Assembly (NCBI RefSeq): GCF_003427025.1
Contig: NZ_QVAI01000006.1
Coordinates: 248,001-312,000, forward strand
DNA from: Jiangella endophytica
GTDB lineage: Bacteria > Actinomycetota > Actinomycetes > Jiangellales > Jiangellaceae
DNA length: 64,000 nucleotides
Direction: 5' to 3'
Shown here piece by piece: positions 20,791 to 40,325 of the stretch. The notes beneath the pieces were generated by a model. That model searched no databases, had not been told where the DNA came from, and saw only the letters and a list, made by a program, of their open reading frames with translations. Position numbers and translations under genes: made by a program. Numbering within the stretch: position 1 is the first letter of the stretch; each line of letters starts with the position of its first letter.

Positions 20791-22212
20791 ATGGACCTGC
20801 ACGTGCGACTGGACGGGCGCAGCGACCTGTCCGGGCAGCTGTACCGGCAGGTCCGGGCCGCGATCCTGGCCGGCCGGCTGCCGGCGGGCCAGCCGCTGCC
20901 GCCGTCGCGCGAGCTGGCCGGCGACCTCGGCATCGCCCGCAACACCGTCAGCATGGCCTACGACCGGCTGGCCGCCGAGGGATTCCTCACCGCCCGGCCC
21001 GGGGTCGGCACGTTCGTCGCCGACGGCCTCGCCGGCGACGGGCGCGCCGACGACGACGGCGACCAGGTCGCCCTCGCGCCACGCGCGGTCTGGGCCGGGC
21101 TGTCCGAGGCGACCGATCTCGCCGCGGCCTCCGCCGAGTTCGACTTCCGTCCCGGTGTCCCTGACGCAGCGTTGTTCCCGTACGCCGCGTGGCGCCGGGT
21201 GACGGCGCGCCAGTTGCGTGCGACGGCGGTCGGCAGCGGCGCGCACATCGCGGCCGCCGGTCACCCGCCGCTGCGCGCGGCCGTCGCCCGGCACGTCGCC
21301 GTCGCCCGTGGCGTCCCGGCGGCCGCCGACGACATCATCGTCACCAGCGGCAGCCAGCAGGCCGTCGATCTCATCGCGCGGGTGCTGCTGGCGCCCGGCG
21401 ACGTCGTGGCGGTCGAGGATCCCGGCTACCCGCTCCCCCGCAAGCTGCTGGCGTCGTCCGGCTTCGACGTCGTGCCGGTGCCGGTCGACGGCGAGGGCCT
21501 CGTGGTCGGCGCGCTGCCGGAGGCCGCCCGGCTGGTCTACGTGACGCCGTCGCACCAGTTCCCGCTCGGCACGCCGATGTCGCTGGGCCGGCGGCTGGCG
21601 CTGCTCGAGTGGGCCCGGCGGACCGGCGCGCTGATCGTCGAGGACGACTACGACAGCGAGTTCCGCTTCGCCGGCCGCCCGTTCGAGCCGCTCGCCGGAC
21701 TCGGCGCCGCCGGCCACGTCGCCTACGTCGGCTCGTTCTCCAAGACGCTGCTGCCCACGCTGCGGCTGGGCTTCGTCGTCGCGCCGCGGTCGCTGCGCGA
21801 CGCCATGCACAAGGCCAAGCAGCTGCTCGACTGGCACACGGCGGTACCCACGCAGGCGGCGCTGGCCGAGCTGATCGACGAGGGCCTGTTCGCCCGGCAC
21901 CTCAAGGCGATGCGCCGGGTGTACGCGCGGCGGCACCACCTGGTGACGTCGCTGCTGCGCCGCGACTTCGCCGGCGTCCTCGAACCGGTCCCCTCGCTGG
22001 TCGGCCTGCACGTCACGGCCCTGCTCGCCGACCCCTCCGCCGACGACGTCGAGGTCGCGGACCACGCCCGGGCGGCCGGGGTCGAGACGCTGCCGCTGTC
22101 GCCACTCGCGCTGGCGCACCCGGTCCGCGGGCTGGCGCTCGGCTACGGCGCCATCACCGAGGAGCGCATCCCCACCGGCCTCGCCCGCCTCCGCACCGCC
22201 CTCCGCAGTTGA
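20791..22212 (+). CDS. MocR/PdxR-type regulator (GntR fused to aminotransferase fold)
   Basis: A 473-residue regulator joining a winged helix (about 15-80: LYRQVRAAILAGRLPAGQPLPPSRELAGDLGIARNTV) to a class I aminotransferase domain (about 115-470). The PLP-binding region is visible: the ligand loop in SQQAVDLIARVLLAPGDVV, EDDYDSEFRF, and the Schiff-base lysine in SFSKTLLPTLRLGF. MocR proteins sense PLP or an amino-compound adduct and often control vitamin B6 or amino-acid genes. Its usual target pdxST is not in the window; the divergent secreted SnoaL-like gene is the nearest candidate. The stop codon lies inside a long inverted repeat. Confidence 0.92.
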   Translation: MDLHVRLDGRSDLSGQLYRQVRAAILAGRLPAGQPLPPSRELAGDLGIARNTVSMAYDRLAAEGFLTARPGVGTFVADGLAGDGRADDDGDQVALAPRAVWAGLSEATDLAAASAEFDFRPGVPDAALFPYAAWRRVTARQLRATAVGSGAHIAAAGHPPLRAAVARHVAVARGVPAAADDIIVTSGSQQAVDLIARVLLAPGDVVAVEDPGYPLPRKLLASSGFDVVPVPVDGEGLVVGALPEAARLVYVTPSHQFPLGTPMSLGRRLALLEWARRTGALIVEDDYDSEFRFAGRPFEPLAGLGAAGHVAYVGSFSKTLLPTLRLGFVVAPRSLRDAMHKAKQLLDWHTAVPTQAALAELIDEGLFARHLKAMRRVYARRHHLVTSLLRRDFAGVLEPVPSLVGLHVTALLADPSADDVEVADHARAAGVETLPLSPLALAHPVRGLALGYGAITEERIPTGLARLRTALRS

Positions 22213-22279
22213 TCTTGGAGTTGTTCGGCCATCGCGGGCGAAATGTCCGATGGATACCCGAAGAACTCCAAGATCAACT
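22207..22279. terminator. Long hairpin between MocR and GH36 genes
   Basis: Arms 22207-22228 and 22258-22279 pair in 21 of 22 positions, with a second small pairing inside (CCATCG with CGATGG). The left arm contains the MocR stop codon. It lies between converging genes, so a two-way terminator is the simplest reading; its AT-richer make-up than its surroundings could also mark a small inserted repeat. Confidence 0.75.
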
Positions 22280-36333: not shown

Positions 36334-37259
36334 GCGTGGACACCGTCGCGACCGCACCGTCCGCGGCGCCGGCCCGCCCGCCGTCGCGTCGGCGCCGCCC
36401 GCGCAGCCGCGAGGAGCGGGTCTGGGGTGCGCTGCGGGTAGCCGCGATCGTCGTGCTGGCGCTGGTCACGATCGTGCCGTTCGTGTACATGCTGGTGCTG
36501 TCGGTGCGCCCGATCGCCGAGGTGCTGCTGGAGCCCGGCCGGCTGTGGGTGGCGCCGTCGGAGGTCACCACCGACACCTACCGCGAGGTGCTGACGCCCG
36601 TCGACGACGGAGGTCAGGGGTTCCTGCGGTACATGGGCAACAGCGCGCTGGTCGCGACCGTCACCGTCGTGGTGACGCTGGTGGCGTCGATCCTCGGCGC
36701 CTACGCCGTCAGCCGGCTGTCCTTCCGCGGCCGCGGCGCGTCCGGCTTCCTGTTCCTGATCGTGTACCTGTTCCCGCCGATCCTGCTGGCGATCCCGCTG
36801 TTCGTGCTGTTCTCGCAGCTCAGCCTCCGGGGGAACCTGCTGGCGCTGGCGATCGTGTACGTGGCGCAGACTGTGCCCGTGGCGATCTACATGCTGCGCA
36901 ACTACTTCGCGACCATCCCGGTGTCGCTGGAGGAGGCGGCGCTGATCGACGGGTGCACGCGGCTCGGCGTCATCCGGCGCATCAGCCTGCCGCTGTCGAT
37001 GCCGTCGCTGATCGCGACCGGGCTGTACGTGTTCATGATCGCGTGGAACGAGTTCCTGTTCGCGCTGCTGTTCCTGGTCGAGCGGCGCGACAACTGGACG
37101 GTCAGCCTGGGGCTGTCGAGGCTGTCCGGATCGATCGAAGTGCCGACGACCGTGCTGATGGCCGGCTCGGTGGTGCTGACGCTGCCGATCATCGCGTTGT
37201 TCTTCCTGGCCGAGCGGATGCTCGTCGAGGGCCTCACCAGCGGTGCGGAGAAGGGATGA
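36330..37259 (+). CDS. Sugar ABC transporter permease, MalG type
   Basis: A 309-residue permease. A basic, proline/arginine-rich N-terminus of about 30 residues precedes VAAIVVLALVTIVPFVYMLVLS. The EAA loop is VSLEEAALIDGCTRLGVIRRISLPLSMP (about 195-222), and the C-terminus LVEGLTSGAEKG is MalG-like. GTG at 36330 overlaps the upstream stop (GTGA), and ATG of the ROK gene overlaps its own stop (ATGA). It forms the channel dimer with the MalF-type permease. Confidence 0.93.
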   Translation: MSVDTVATAPSAAPARPPSRRRRPRSREERVWGALRVAAIVVLALVTIVPFVYMLVLSVRPIAEVLLEPGRLWVAPSEVTTDTYREVLTPVDDGGQGFLRYMGNSALVATVTVVVTLVASILGAYAVSRLSFRGRGASGFLFLIVYLFPPILLAIPLFVLFSQLSLRGNLLALAIVYVAQTVPVAIYMLRNYFATIPVSLEEAALIDGCTRLGVIRRISLPLSMPSLIATGLYVFMIAWNEFLFALLFLVERRDNWTVSLGLSRLSGSIEVPTTVLMAGSVVLTLPIIALFFLAERMLVEGLTSGAEKG

Positions 37260-38428
37260 CGGGGACGACGGCGGGCCAGATCCTCGAACTGGTCCGCTCC
37301 GGCGAGGTCAGCACCCGCCGCGAGCTGCTGGAGCAGACGGGACTGTCGCGGTCGACGCTGACCCAGCGGCTGGCCATGCTGACGGCCGCCGGGTACCTGA
37401 GCGAGGCGGCGGCCATGCACTCCGGCGTCGCCGGGCGGCCGGCGAAGGCGCTGTCGTTCGTCGACACCGACAAGTACGTGCTGACCGCCGACCTCGGCGC
37501 CACGCACGCGCGGCTGGCACTACAGGACGCCGCAGGGGCGATCCTGGCCGAGAGCACCGACCGCATCCACATCCAGGACGGGCCCGGTCCCGTCCTGACG
37601 GCCGTGCTCGACGGATTCACTGCCCTGCTCGCGAAGGCCGGTCCGGCGGCGCGCGAGCGGCTGTGCGGCATCGGGATCGGCGTGCCCGGCCCGGTGAACG
37701 TCGCGACGAAGCGGCTGCAGCAGCCGCCGATCATGCCCGGCTGGGACGACTACCCGGTGACGACGGTGTTCGAGGAGCGGTTCGGGGTGCCCGCCCTGAT
37801 CGACAACGACGCCAACCTCATGGGGCTGGGCGAGGCGCGGCGCTACCACCCGGACGTGCCGAGCCTGCTCTACGTCAAGGTCGGCACCGGCATCGGCGCC
37901 GGGCTGATCATCGGCGGGCGGCCCGAGCGCGGCATCGCGGGCGGCGCCGGCGACATCGGGCACATCCGCATCGCGCACCCCGTCGCCGGTGCGGTCTGCG
38001 CGTGCGGCGCCAACGGCTGCCTGGCCGCGCACGCCAGCGGCGGCGCGCTGGTCCGGCAGCTGACCGACCGCGGCATCGCGGCCGAGACGGCCACCGACGT
38101 GGCCCGGCTCGTGCAGGCCGGCAACGCCGACGCGATCGCGCTGGTGCGCACCGCCGGCCAGCTGGTCGGCGAGGTGCTGGCGACGGCGGTGGCGCTGCTC
38201 AACCCCGGCGTGCTGGTGATCGGCGGGTCGATGGCACTGACGCACGAGCACTTCCTCATCGGCGTGCGCGAGTCGCTCTACGAGCGGACGGTGCCGCTGG
38301 CCACCAGCGACCTCACCATCACCGCGTCGGCCCTGCAGGACCGTGCCGCCATCGAAGGCGCCCGCATCATGGTCGTCGACCACGTGTTCTCCGCCACCGC
38401 CGTCGACGCCCGCCTCGGCACCCCCTGA
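37256..38428 (+). CDS. ROK-family transcriptional regulator
   Basis: A 390-residue repressor of the NagC/XylR branch. The N-terminal winged helix (about 8-65: GQILELVRSGEVSTRRELLEQTGLSRSTLTQRLAML) is joined to a ROK kinase-like domain with the ATP/sugar loops ADLGATHARLAL and GIGIGVPGPV, the catalytic-type INDANLMGLGE, and the zinc site CACGANGC (CxCx4C). The usual Glu after the zinc motif is Ala-Ala, so sugar-kinase activity is unlikely and a regulator role is favoured. It closes the ABC operon by ATGA overlap and probably senses the imported sugar to control it. A large inverted repeat follows the stop. Confidence 0.92.
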   Translation: MTGTTAGQILELVRSGEVSTRRELLEQTGLSRSTLTQRLAMLTAAGYLSEAAAMHSGVAGRPAKALSFVDTDKYVLTADLGATHARLALQDAAGAILAESTDRIHIQDGPGPVLTAVLDGFTALLAKAGPAARERLCGIGIGVPGPVNVATKRLQQPPIMPGWDDYPVTTVFEERFGVPALIDNDANLMGLGEARRYHPDVPSLLYVKVGTGIGAGLIIGGRPERGIAGGAGDIGHIRIAHPVAGAVCACGANGCLAAHASGGALVRQLTDRGIAAETATDVARLVQAGNADAIALVRTAGQLVGEVLATAVALLNPGVLVIGGSMALTHEHFLIGVRESLYERTVPLATSDLTITASALQDRAAIEGARIMVVDHVFSATAVDARLGTP

Positions 38429-38436
38429 CCCCCCTT

Positions 38437-38668
38437 GGAATGATCACGTTAAGTGGGGGTGCTCCCGCCCTAACAGGCATGCATGCCTAGTGGAGCGAAC
38501 GGACACCTGGTGAAGCGAACGGACACCTGGTGAAGCGAACGGACGCCTACTGAAGCGAACGGACGCCTACTGAAGCGAACGGACGCCTGCTGAACCAGGC
38601 GTTCTCCCGCTTCACCAGGAATGCATGCCCCTGGAAGCGGGAGCACCCCTACTCAACGTGATCATTCC
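38437..38668. repeat. 232-bp inverted repeat enclosing tandem units
   Basis: Outer arms 38437-38468 and 38637-38668 pair in 30 of 32 positions. After a 7-base mismatch, pairing resumes for about 22 bases around a GCATGCAT palindrome. The centre holds five 20-base tandem units. It occupies the whole gap between the converging ROK and ptsI genes, stopping 4 bases before the ptsI stop codon. Only fragments of reading frames cross it. It may terminate both transcripts, but it is far larger than a terminator needs to be. Confidence 0.88.
38491..38590. repeat. Five contiguous 20-bp tandem repeats
   Basis: Five units starting at 38491, 38511, 38531, 38551 and 38571 follow the pattern TGAAGCGAACGGACGCCTAC with changes at a few positions (A/G at the second and ACACC/ACGCC; ends TGG, TAC or TGC). 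There are no spacers. The 20-base period places each unit nearly two helical turns from the next. Confidence 0.9.
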
Positions 38669-38672
38669 CGGG

Positions 38673-40325
38673 TCAGGCGAGGGGTGGGAGTTCAGCGTGC
38701 ACGGCGGCGCGGGCGGACCGGGCGTCCGGCGCGGACAGCGCCAGCTCGGCCAGCCGCACGCACTCGTCGCGGGTGACGGAGAGCAGCGTCGCCGCGACCT
38801 CGGGGATGGCCCGCGCCGTCATCGACAGGCTGGTCACACCCAGCCCGACGAGGACGACGGCGAGGGCGGGGTCGGCCGCGGCCTCACCACAGACGCCGAC
38901 CGGACGATCGGCCTGCAGTCCCGCCTCCGCCGTCAGGTGCACCAGCCGCAGCACGGCGGGCTGCCAGCCGTCGCTGAGCTCGGCCAGCTCGCCGAGCAGG
39001 CGGTCGGCGGCCATCGCGTACTGGGTGAGGTCGTTGGTGCCGAGGCTGGCGAACGCGACCCGCGCCATCAGTGCGTCGGCGGTCAGCGCGAGCGCCGGCA
39101 CCTCGACCATCACGCCGGCCGTGGCCAGGCCGAACGTGCCGGCCCGGGCGACGAAGTCGGCGGCCTCGCCGGGGGTGGAGATCATCGGCGCCATCACCCA
39201 GACGTCGGCGCCGGACGCCTCCGCGGCCCGGGCGATCGCCTCCAGCTGGTGGTCGAGCACCTCCGGGTGCTCCCACGCGGTCCGGTAGCCGCGCACGCCC
39301 AGGGCCGGGTTGGCCTCGGAGGTGTCGGTGAGGAACGGCAGCGGCTTGTCCGCACCCGCGTCGAGCGTGCGGACGACCACCTTCTTGCCCGCGAACGGCG
39401 CGAGCACGGCCGTGTACTGCTCGGTCTGCTCGTCGACCGTCGGCTCCTCGGCGCGGTCGAGGAAGCAGAACTCGGTGCGGAACAGCCCGACGCCCTCGGC
39501 GCCGGTATCCGCGGCGGCCTCGGCGCCCTTCGGGTCGCCGACGTTGGCCAGCAGCTGGACGCGGTGCCCGTCGGACGTGCGGCCGGTGCCGTCGAACGTC
39601 CACTCACGGGCGGCGGCGGCCTGGACCTGCGCGACGACGTCGGCCGGCGGGTCGGGCTCGACCGTCCCGGCGCCGCCGTCGACCAGCACGACGGCGTCCT
39701 CGGCGACGTCGAGGATCCCGCGCGCCGCGACCACGGCGGGCAGCCCCAGCGCCCGCGCCAGGATCGCGGTGTGCGACGTCGGCCCGCCGCCCTCGGTGAC
39801 CAGCGCCAGGCAGGTCGCCGGGTCCAGCGTCGCGGTGTCGGCCGGGGCGAGATCGTGCGCCACCAGGACGAACGGCGTTTCGCGCTCGGGCACGCCGGGC
39901 GCCGGTCGGCCGTCGAGCACGGCCACGATGCGATCGCGGACGTCGGCGACGTCGCGGGCGCGCTCGGCCATGTAACCGCCCAGCGACTCCAGCATCGCCT
40001 GGACCTCGGCCGCCGCGTCCCACACCGCGCGGGCCGCCGACGTCGCGTCGGACAGCTTCTTCTGCGCGGCCGTGACCAGCGCCGGGTCGGCCGCCATCAG
40101 CGCCGTCGCCTCCAGCACCGCGGCGCCGTCGCCGTGCGCAGTCGACGCCCGCCGTTCGAGGTCGGCACGGACCTGCTCCGCGGCCGCGGCGATGCGGGCG
40201 CCCTCGGCCTCGACGTCGGCGGCCGGCGTCGCACCGGCCGCCGGCTCGGCCACCGGGTCCGGCATGCGGACCACCGGCCCCACCGCTCGCCCGGAACTGA
40301 CACCCACTCCGCTGATCACTGCCAC
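38673..40325 (-). CDS. ptsI: PTS enzyme I (phosphoenolpyruvate-protein phosphotransferase)
   Basis: A 550-residue cytosolic enzyme that takes phosphate from phosphoenolpyruvate and gives it to HPr. The phosphorylated histidine is H185 in GGGPTSHTAILAR. The N-terminal HPr-binding helical domain spans about 35-140. The C-terminal PEP-binding barrel shows GVGLFRTEFCFLDR, ALGVRGYRTAWEHPE, GVMVEVPALALTADAL and ASLGTNDLTQYAMAADR, with the conserved catalytic Cys in PVGVCGEAAADP. GTG at 40325 has GGAGGAG before it. It lies downstream of the EIIC gene, with a strong hairpin in the 90-base gap, so its expression may be partly set there. The HPr partner is at 450-716. Confidence 0.97.
   Translation of the reverse strand: MAVISGVGVSSGRAVGPVVRMPDPVAEPAAGATPAADVEAEGARIAAAAEQVRADLERRASTAHGDGAAVLEATALMAADPALVTAAQKKLSDATSAARAVWDAAAEVQAMLESLGGYMAERARDVADVRDRIVAVLDGRPAPGVPERETPFVLVAHDLAPADTATLDPATCLALVTEGGGPTSHTAILARALGLPAVVAARGILDVAEDAVVLVDGGAGTVEPDPPADVVAQVQAAAAREWTFDGTGRTSDGHRVQLLANVGDPKGAEAAADTGAEGVGLFRTEFCFLDRAEEPTVDEQTEQYTAVLAPFAGKKVVVRTLDAGADKPLPFLTDTSEANPALGVRGYRTAWEHPEVLDHQLEAIARAAEASGADVWVMAPMISTPGEAADFVARAGTFGLATAGVMVEVPALALTADALMARVAFASLGTNDLTQYAMAADRLLGELAELSDGWQPAVLRLVHLTAEAGLQADRPVGVCGEAAADPALAVVLVGLGVTSLSMTARAIPEVAATLLSVTRDECVRLAELALSAPDARSARAAVHAELPPLA

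Follow-up and report, generated by a model that had tools for sequence, protein, structure and literature searches.

The closest described counterparts of the elements analyzed here are the REP and REPIN sequences that accompany RAYT (TnpAREP) genes. In the portions of PMC3116915, PMC8266576 and PMC3733652 on which we draw, these sequences form inverted doublets with a preferred spacing, leave solo remnants, and flank a gene that is usually present in one copy. The GI doublet of P. fluorescens SBW25 has 71 bp between its ends, as described in the same portions of those sources. CGTC-tagged REPs and TIRtrons, taken from part of PMC3733652, are palindromic families like those described below, and the TIRtrons carry tyrosine transposases.

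The window that we analyzed is a 64,000-nucleotide stretch of DNA from Jiangella endophytica (genome G000). It contains a large inverted repeat with 20-bp tandem units in its loop. The original prediction, made from the sequence letters, offered four readings of this region: a mobile non-autonomous element, a structured RNA, a protein-binding array, or a recombination site.

Anatomy of the window element

The element sits between the stop codons of two convergent genes, which, following the original prediction, we take to be a ROK-like gene (37256–38428, + strand, with its stop codon 12 bp from the left end motif) and a ptsI-like gene (38673–40325, − strand). Its outer arms, at 38437–38468 (+ strand, GGAATGATCACGTTAAG...) and 38637–38668 (− strand), pair in 30 of 32 bases. 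Both contain an end motif, TGATCACGTNNAG, at 38441–38453 (+ strand) and 38652–38664 (− strand), 211 bp apart from start to start, so the core from end motif to end motif is 38441–38664. Tandem Repeats Finder placed the array of 20-bp units at 38485–38594 (+ strand; period 20, 5.5 copies, 92% matches), and a right-end hairpin follows at 38597–38650 (− strand; AGGCGTTCTCCCGCTTC / GAAGCGGGAGCACCCCT; inverted pair I4). The inverted repeat, the array and their coordinates were correct as originally predicted. The fold of 38425–38690 was calculated at −149.1 kcal/mol compared with a shuffle mean of −94.3 (n = 200; z = −11.5), and none of the shuffled sequences folded as well.

By eye, the window 20-mer, CCTGGTGAAGCGAACGGACG, can be recognized as a variant of the arm of the element itself (CCTGGTGAAGCG..., CCTGGTGAAGCGGGAG..), and because of this we read the array as a probable expansion of that arm. 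More than about two of the 20-bp units were present in only 2 of 66 J. endophytica loci, namely the window copy and its sister (L041). The sister copy (C56:313144–313378) is 89% identical, inverted, and 26 kb away. By one measure it contains about 4.9 of the 20-mers versus 6.0 in the window copy. The window copy is of the double form, with a spacing of 211, two end hairpins, and the apparently expanded arm inside.

Several candidate identities were tried and set aside. At E ≤ 1, no Rfam 15 covariance model gave a match over the element (two weak ones fell inside the ROK gene), and a known structured RNA was rejected for that reason. A consensus scan of 38300–38800 found no G+C-rich stem followed by a T-run, the stem itself being present. 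An intrinsic terminator was rejected as a sufficient explanation on the basis of this stem without a T-run and the dispersal of the element; it is possible that the element additionally acts as a terminator. A presumed likeness of the end motif to integron attC sites was dropped because the second half of the motif varies (TTCAG, TCAAG, TGAAG). The original prediction had also found the position between sugar-ABC and PTS genes worth remarking. This position looks incidental, since the other copies that we read adjoin different genes (in L022, the copy precedes a hemB-like gene), and regulation of the sugar locus was rejected on the same by-eye observation.

A dispersed family of palindromes

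The original prediction proposed a search of the host genome, and the region proved to be multi-copy. With 40 of 200 first-look candidates scored, a 301-bp query gave at least 99 matching pieces, which we group into 40 places. There are 104 occurrences of the end motif, and the pattern read backwards does not occur at all. We estimate that about fifty or more copies of the hairpin-forming element are scattered through the genome. The mobile or regulatory reading had been expected to fail for a region that was single copy, invariant and solely a terminator; what we found is a region that is multi-copy and differs between species.

Among 100 of the 104 ends, 33 pairs had spacings of 69 (14 pairs), 138/139 (6 pairs), 159/160 (7 pairs), 191, 202, 211, 212, 787 and 1188 bp, and 34 ends were unpaired. 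A 69-bp spacing corresponds to an 82-bp palindrome, and the larger spacings correspond to two end hairpins plus a spacer. Some of the single matches may be due to chance, and one falls in a coding region (L085). The 1.2-kb gene-bearing, 138–212-bp double, 82-bp single, and solo forms fit an autonomous element with its derivatives.

Other repeats were seen in and around these loci. Near-palindromes resembling GGAAAGCGNTTGCC stand in or beside the spacers of several elements (L023 3088, L026 3100, L032 3163, L033 3091, L043 3134 and 3175, L057 3014, L087 1144, L089 1147 and L202, with a variant in L201), and they are also found in G001 and, as a variant, in G007. They resemble a LacI-type operator. 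A longer, non-coding-looking repeat (about 350–470 bp aligned) with one TGATCACG end has five copies in J. endophytica (L066, L068, L069, L072, L090), and another palindrome, of 56 bp (ATGATCATCAACCGTTGGCGACGTC...), lies at L068 372–427 and also in L069 and L072. Two element ends are 452 bp apart around a spacer in G005 (L064, C72:911–1375). Small host-like ORFs lie between two inverted element ends in L063 (G006, 1557–1943) and L065 (J. endophytica, 1302–1823). The lipoprotein-like ORF of L063 and the kinase-like ORF of L065 may be cargo, but solo ends flanking a host gene would look alike.

Beyond J. endophytica, the end motif was found 280 times in J. asiatica (G006) and 2 to 38 times in ten other congeners, with counts falling to 2–3 in four congeners. 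Genomes of other genera (28 in all) had 0 to 13, and two genomes of family f40 had 34 (G168) and 49 (G256). Of the 393 genomes from the class, 7 had the 82-bp form, namely those of five Jiangella (J. endophytica among them), G168 and G256. In named genomes, the exact form accounted for at least 80 stretches, with 71 in J. asiatica, 8 in J. anatolica and 1 in J. ureilytica among the matches listed; the J. asiatica genome G006 has 75 exact 82-bp palindromes.

The gap between the ROK and ptsI genes differs among species. It is filled by the element in J. endophytica, and the two stop codons are 14 bp apart in G010 and 21 bp apart in G008. In G002 the gap has a 22-bp palindrome, GGAATGACCACGTGGTCATTCC, similar to the two outer arms fused directly, with the inside missing. 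G001, G004, G005 and G009 have other DNA at this position, and the ROK gene was unmatched in the stretches examined of G003, G006, G007 and G011. Of the four original readings, the mobile non-autonomous element is the one supported by these data, specifically by the multiple copies, the species differences at this gap, and the sister copy with fewer 20-mers. When seven gaps were compared between J. endophytica and J. asiatica, both species had an element in each and the inner sequence was the species' own; the J. asiatica loci were chosen for carrying elements, so these gap counts are not a sample. At one further gap (L071/L132), J. asiatica is without the element. The species-specific insides at common gaps could be the result of gene conversion.

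Arm pairing and genomic position

Among 31 elements of the 82-bp form, 22 of 37 arm pairs had changes on both sides, and 86.0% of cells were paired. None of 500 shuffles reached any of the five measures used, and slid controls gave 34–42%. Since pairs change on both sides and shuffles are never as good, the arms stay paired while their sequence changes, through compensatory changes. Twelve of the 37 pairs never vary, and eleven of those are fixed by the search pattern.

None of 113 elements lay inside a predicted gene, according to a simple, home-made gene caller that missed the ROK gene beside the window element. Elements less than 150 bp from an end were left out of this position count, and three edge cases were unclassified. 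In J. endophytica, 26 of 31 elements were between convergent genes; among control gaps the figure was 23 of 83 (p = 9e-8). The J. asiatica elements numbered 25 between convergent genes, 33 between tandem genes, 5 between divergent genes and 2 at an edge, versus 21, 78 and 33 in the control; the convergent share was 25 of the 63 classified compared with 21 of 132 (p = 5e-4). Convergent placement was seen for 4 of 8 elements in J. anatolica and 4 of 9 in f40. The family is recognizable by its conserved ends (TGATCACGT), paired arms, preferred unit lengths, intergenic placement, and presence or absence between species.

A nuclease-like gene flanked by family ends

At one place in J. endophytica, inverted ends approximately 1.2 kb apart bracket an ORF (L061 1523–2497) between genes that we take, by eye, to be mshC-like and PAC2-like. 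J. asiatica (L062) and G007 (L188) have an ORF of this type in the corresponding position, and in f40 (L189, L191) it is next to a presumably fba-like gene. Overall, the gene occupies the mshC|PAC2-like gap in seven Jiangella (the mshC side alone is visible in G007), is elsewhere in G008, and elsewhere again in f40. Among the 13 genomes searched, orthologues with 41–75% identity were found in G001, G002, G003, G006, G007, G008, G011, G168 and G256, the one in G008 having one stop codon. The best matches in G004, G005, G009 and G010 were far weaker (E 7.8e-18 to 6.5e-27, 32–34% identity). No homologue of the nuclease was detected by tblastn in the window or its related-DNA loci.

Family inverted repeats were present on both sides of the gene in 10 of 10 orthologue loci, with scores of 26–66 versus 8–12 for shuffled sequences. 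Both end motifs were found with at most one mismatch in nine of those ten loci, and G011 has two mismatches in one end. The flanked loci span two families and three or more places, and the dispersed palindromes are linked to one protein family. Genomes with an intact gene also had more end motifs (104, 280, 38, 23, 20, 15, 13) than those without (2, 35, 3, 2, 3; one-sided p = 0.017). G005 is a clear exception, with 35 end motifs and no close orthologue, and G003 is near background, having the gene and just 13 end motifs, a count within the range of 0–13 in 28 genomes of other genera. The nuclease genes are nearly absent from plasmids, with 1 record matching L106 (a paralogue described below) and 2 matching the L061 protein among 72,556.

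An aligned set of 32 homologues was chosen from 76 loci to examine the protein. PADLOC AbiEi profiles matched all 32, and Pfam searches at E 0.1 matched MTES_1575 in 20, DUF559 in 19 and AbiEi_4 in just 13; no Y1 transposase family was among the Pfam matches. Four residues are invariant in the 32 homologues (Ser207, Glu210, Asp240 and Gly254 in L101 numbering), with Gly254 falling within an E/Q-x-D/E/H/Q-G-x-x-K/H pattern. We take this to be the layout known from Vsr-like PD-(D/E)XK nucleases. Solved relatives were the endonuclease-like 3hrl (E 6e-6), the mobile-intron protein 3r3p (0.024) and Vsr (0.23). MTES_1575 is described as a Vsr-type REase in the part of PMC3710099 consulted. The protein is predicted to be a nuclease whose N-terminal part is of AbiEi type and whose C-terminal part is DUF559/MTES_1575 (Vsr-like PD-(D/E)XK).

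The region upstream of these genes has a characteristic motif. Between −200 and +90, the nonamer TTRTCCACA was found 36 times in 21,384 bp (34 of 74 loci), compared with 0 in the gene bodies, 0 in the 200 bp downstream, and 4 in the 165,805 bp of the rest, an enrichment of approximately 70-fold over the rest of the loci. Control motifs in the upstream regions gave 0 (reversed) and 5 (part-complemented). Five loci have two DnaA-box nonamers 29 bp apart. The high-affinity DnaA box is given as TTGTCCACA in S. coelicolor and M. tuberculosis and as TTATCCACA in E. coli in the consulted part of PMC4285127.

Paralogues and their own palindromes

A protein family that tends palindromes would be expected to include paralogues with other palindromes. 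We found such palindromes next to paralogues, and both of those tested are dispersed. L106, in J. endophytica itself, has hairpins of about 74 bp on both sides (TTGATCTTGGAGTTGTTC...). Their motif (≤1 mismatch) occurs 100 times in J. endophytica, 118 in G002, 125 in G007 and 73 in G008, with 0–9 in ten others and 0 for the control; G008 is an exception, since no close orthologue of L106 accompanies its 73 copies (best E 3e-13). Hairpins of the form GCAGATACCCGCC... enclose L233 in G256, and this palindrome (≤3 mismatches) was found 23 times in G256 and not at all in three other genomes. The window itself has a copy of the second palindrome family, the TTGATCTTGGAGTTGTTC hairpin, at 22209–22277, with its gene partner L106 in the same genome.

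Flanking palindromes were present at 18 of 19 L106-family loci, L106 included, and the remaining locus is at a contig end; L251 is absent from this tabulation. The palindrome shifts with the protein, being TTGATCTTGGAG at 62–100% identity, GATCATGGAG at about 38–45%, and CAGAGAAGTGGGGC-like at 38% in f40. Homologues of L106 at E ≤ 1e-10 were found in 129 of 216 genomes of the class. Of 20 new homologue loci in this survey, 14 reached an inverted-repeat score of at least 15, a count that includes L271, with just 25 bp of flank on one side, and L270, whose match looks like coding sequence. Mismatched pairs reached 15 in 2 of 57 cases, one of them between homologous loci.

Across all usable homologues, 41 of 71 reached a score of 15 versus 2 of 150 mismatched pairs, and we read those two as homologous loci. 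The count of 71 omits L220, L241 and L271 (short flank) as well as duplicates. Five of the 30 homologues below the threshold (L229, L246, L250, L255, L256) show repeats when tighter gene bounds are used; the others are without clear repeats, and many of them are in L102–L105 and L218–L237. Protein similarity and palindrome similarity were correlated (Spearman 0.28; 0 of 1000 permutations as high). In the closest protein class, 44% of pairs had alike palindromes, compared with no more than 2.5% in any other class, so the correlation is carried by close homologues, and our confidence in the explanation favored below is slightly lower because of this.

Two further observations concern these loci. 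The gap between what we take, by eye, to be pstB-like and pit-like genes has related nuclease genes in G168 (L229) and G256 (L233) with completely different flanking palindromes. Repeated CTTGGCACGCC / GGCGTGCCAAG motifs surround another group of homologues (L217, L219, L221).

Discussion

On balance, we think it probable that the window region is a non-autonomous copy, without the gene, of a family of dispersed palindromes served by an AbiEi + DUF559 nuclease gene in a REPtron-like arrangement. As in REPtrons, the palindromes are extragenic and dispersed (104 ends here; of 113 elements, none fell within a predicted gene), solo ends occur, the palindromes stand on both sides of a gene (10 of 10 orthologue loci), and repeat and protein diverge together. 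Doublet spacing is 69 here versus 71 bp for the SBW25 GI doublet in the portions of the sources cited above. There are also differences. The flanked gene is AbiEi + DUF559/MTES_1575 nuclease-like rather than a Y1 HUH transposase, a GTAG tag is present at columns 13–16 in just 4 of 31 elements, and single palindromes are 70–82 bp (three families measured) versus 20–50 nt for REP. The system is REPtron-like by anatomy, and it falls outside the REPtrons proper on the flanked gene and the GTAG tag.

Other known systems share individual parts with this one. Vsr-like homing nucleases home into one allelic site. The mobile-intron nuclease 3r3p belongs to the same nuclease group (weak profile match, E 0.024), but the palindromes described here are dispersed among unrelated flanks. 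TnsA of Tn7 is a PD-(D/E)XK nuclease that takes part in DNA transposition together with the DDE transposase TnsB; here no TnsB-like partner was seen. The AbiE type IV toxin-antitoxin system has in common the AbiEi-type N-terminal part, whereas the C-terminal half of the present protein is nuclease-like, and no AbiEii gene was noticed beside the nuclease gene in the ORF lists that we read by eye. ERIC, NEMIS/Correia and other bacterial MITEs are intergenic palindromes of about 100 bp that are not known to be linked to a nuclease gene. In the openly licensed literature, we found no report tying AbiEi or DUF559 genes to palindromes.

The same observations could be explained differently. The palindromes might be two-way terminators or mRNA-end stabilizers that are useful to the host and that spread and become homogenized by gene conversion. 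The nuclease gene would then be selfish and homing-like, having inserted itself between two palindromes that it uses as its target. The convergent bias in J. endophytica (26/31 vs 23/83, p 9e-8) and J. asiatica (25/63 vs 21/132, p 5e-4) points in this direction, as do the strong fold of the window element (z −11.5), the weak structural relationship to a mobile-intron protein, and the seven gaps filled in both species with species-specific insides, keeping in mind that the J. asiatica loci were chosen for their elements. However, the consensus scan was without any stem plus T-run, elements in J. asiatica are more often between tandem genes (33) than convergent ones (25), and element-free sites exist. 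A needed host function is also hard to square with 280 end motifs in one species and 2–3 in four others, and we consider this explanation unlikely.

Dispersal, conserved terminal inverted repeats and several lengths are also what a conventional MITE would show if it were moved by a DDE transposon that shares its terminal repeats and has so far escaped notice. Yet no target-site duplication was found in 79 + 14 elements at lengths of 2–9 and offsets of 0–11 (93 kept after elements less than 60 bp from a locus end and duplicates were left out), so a DDE MITE with target duplication was rejected. The sole excess, a 2-mer at offset 3 (34/79), is in our reading explained by the CG palindrome in the ends. 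At all ten orthologue loci, AbiEi/DUF559 genes lie between paired ends separated by about 1.2 kb, ends 615–1023 bp apart hold host-like ORFs (lipoprotein-like L063, kinase-like L065 and methyltransferase-like L190, by eye), and no DDE transposase was seen between the paired ends that were read, which are part of all ends. A MITE of this kind seems to us quite improbable. Least credible is that the elements are binding sites of a protein that organizes the chromosome or acts in regulation, the 20-bp units then forming its operator array, akin to the protein-binding array of the original prediction. TGATCACGT half-sites at preferred spacings would suit such a protein, but the 20-mer array is present in 2 of 66 loci, the inner arms are kept as pairs and not as sequence, and the end motif is down to 2–3 in four congeners; we regard a binding-site role as very improbable.

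Returning to the gene-less, REPtron-like copy that we favor, we infer that the nuclease mobilizes the palindromes. The protein would bind its own palindrome through the AbiEi-type part, and the nuclease part would cut the palindrome as a hairpin or cruciform. Repair or replication might then copy the element elsewhere without target duplication, much as the RAYT transposase is thought to serve REP elements, and expression of the nuclease gene may be tied to DnaA. The window copy would be a gene-less derivative that has a hairpin at each end and whose arm has grown into a series of 20-bp units. Its location suggests that it may, in addition, end transcription of the two convergent genes.

More broadly, and tentatively, actinomycetes may carry a separately evolved counterpart of REP/RAYT, in which fusions of AbiEi with a Vsr-like PD-(D/E)XK domain each tend and propagate a palindrome family of their own, with replication possibly setting the timing through the upstream DnaA boxes and with the nuclease as the only dedicated mobility enzyme. 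If that reading is true, a PD-(D/E)XK nuclease works here without a DDE, HUH or recombinase partner.

Actinobacterial proteins that carry the annotation AbiEi antitoxin or DUF559, such as the Tsukamurella plasmid match, thereby gain a proposed function that can be tested, and palindromic repeat families without a Y1 transposase gain a candidate enzyme. Because scores of intergenic gaps in each genome contain the palindromes, they are also relevant to where transcription ends and to how the genomes of these organisms are assembled. If the nuclease does move the palindromes, bacteria would have arrived at the arrangement of REP/RAYT two or more times, using unrelated enzymes, and this may be a new way of spreading short repeats in the genomes of soil actinobacteria.
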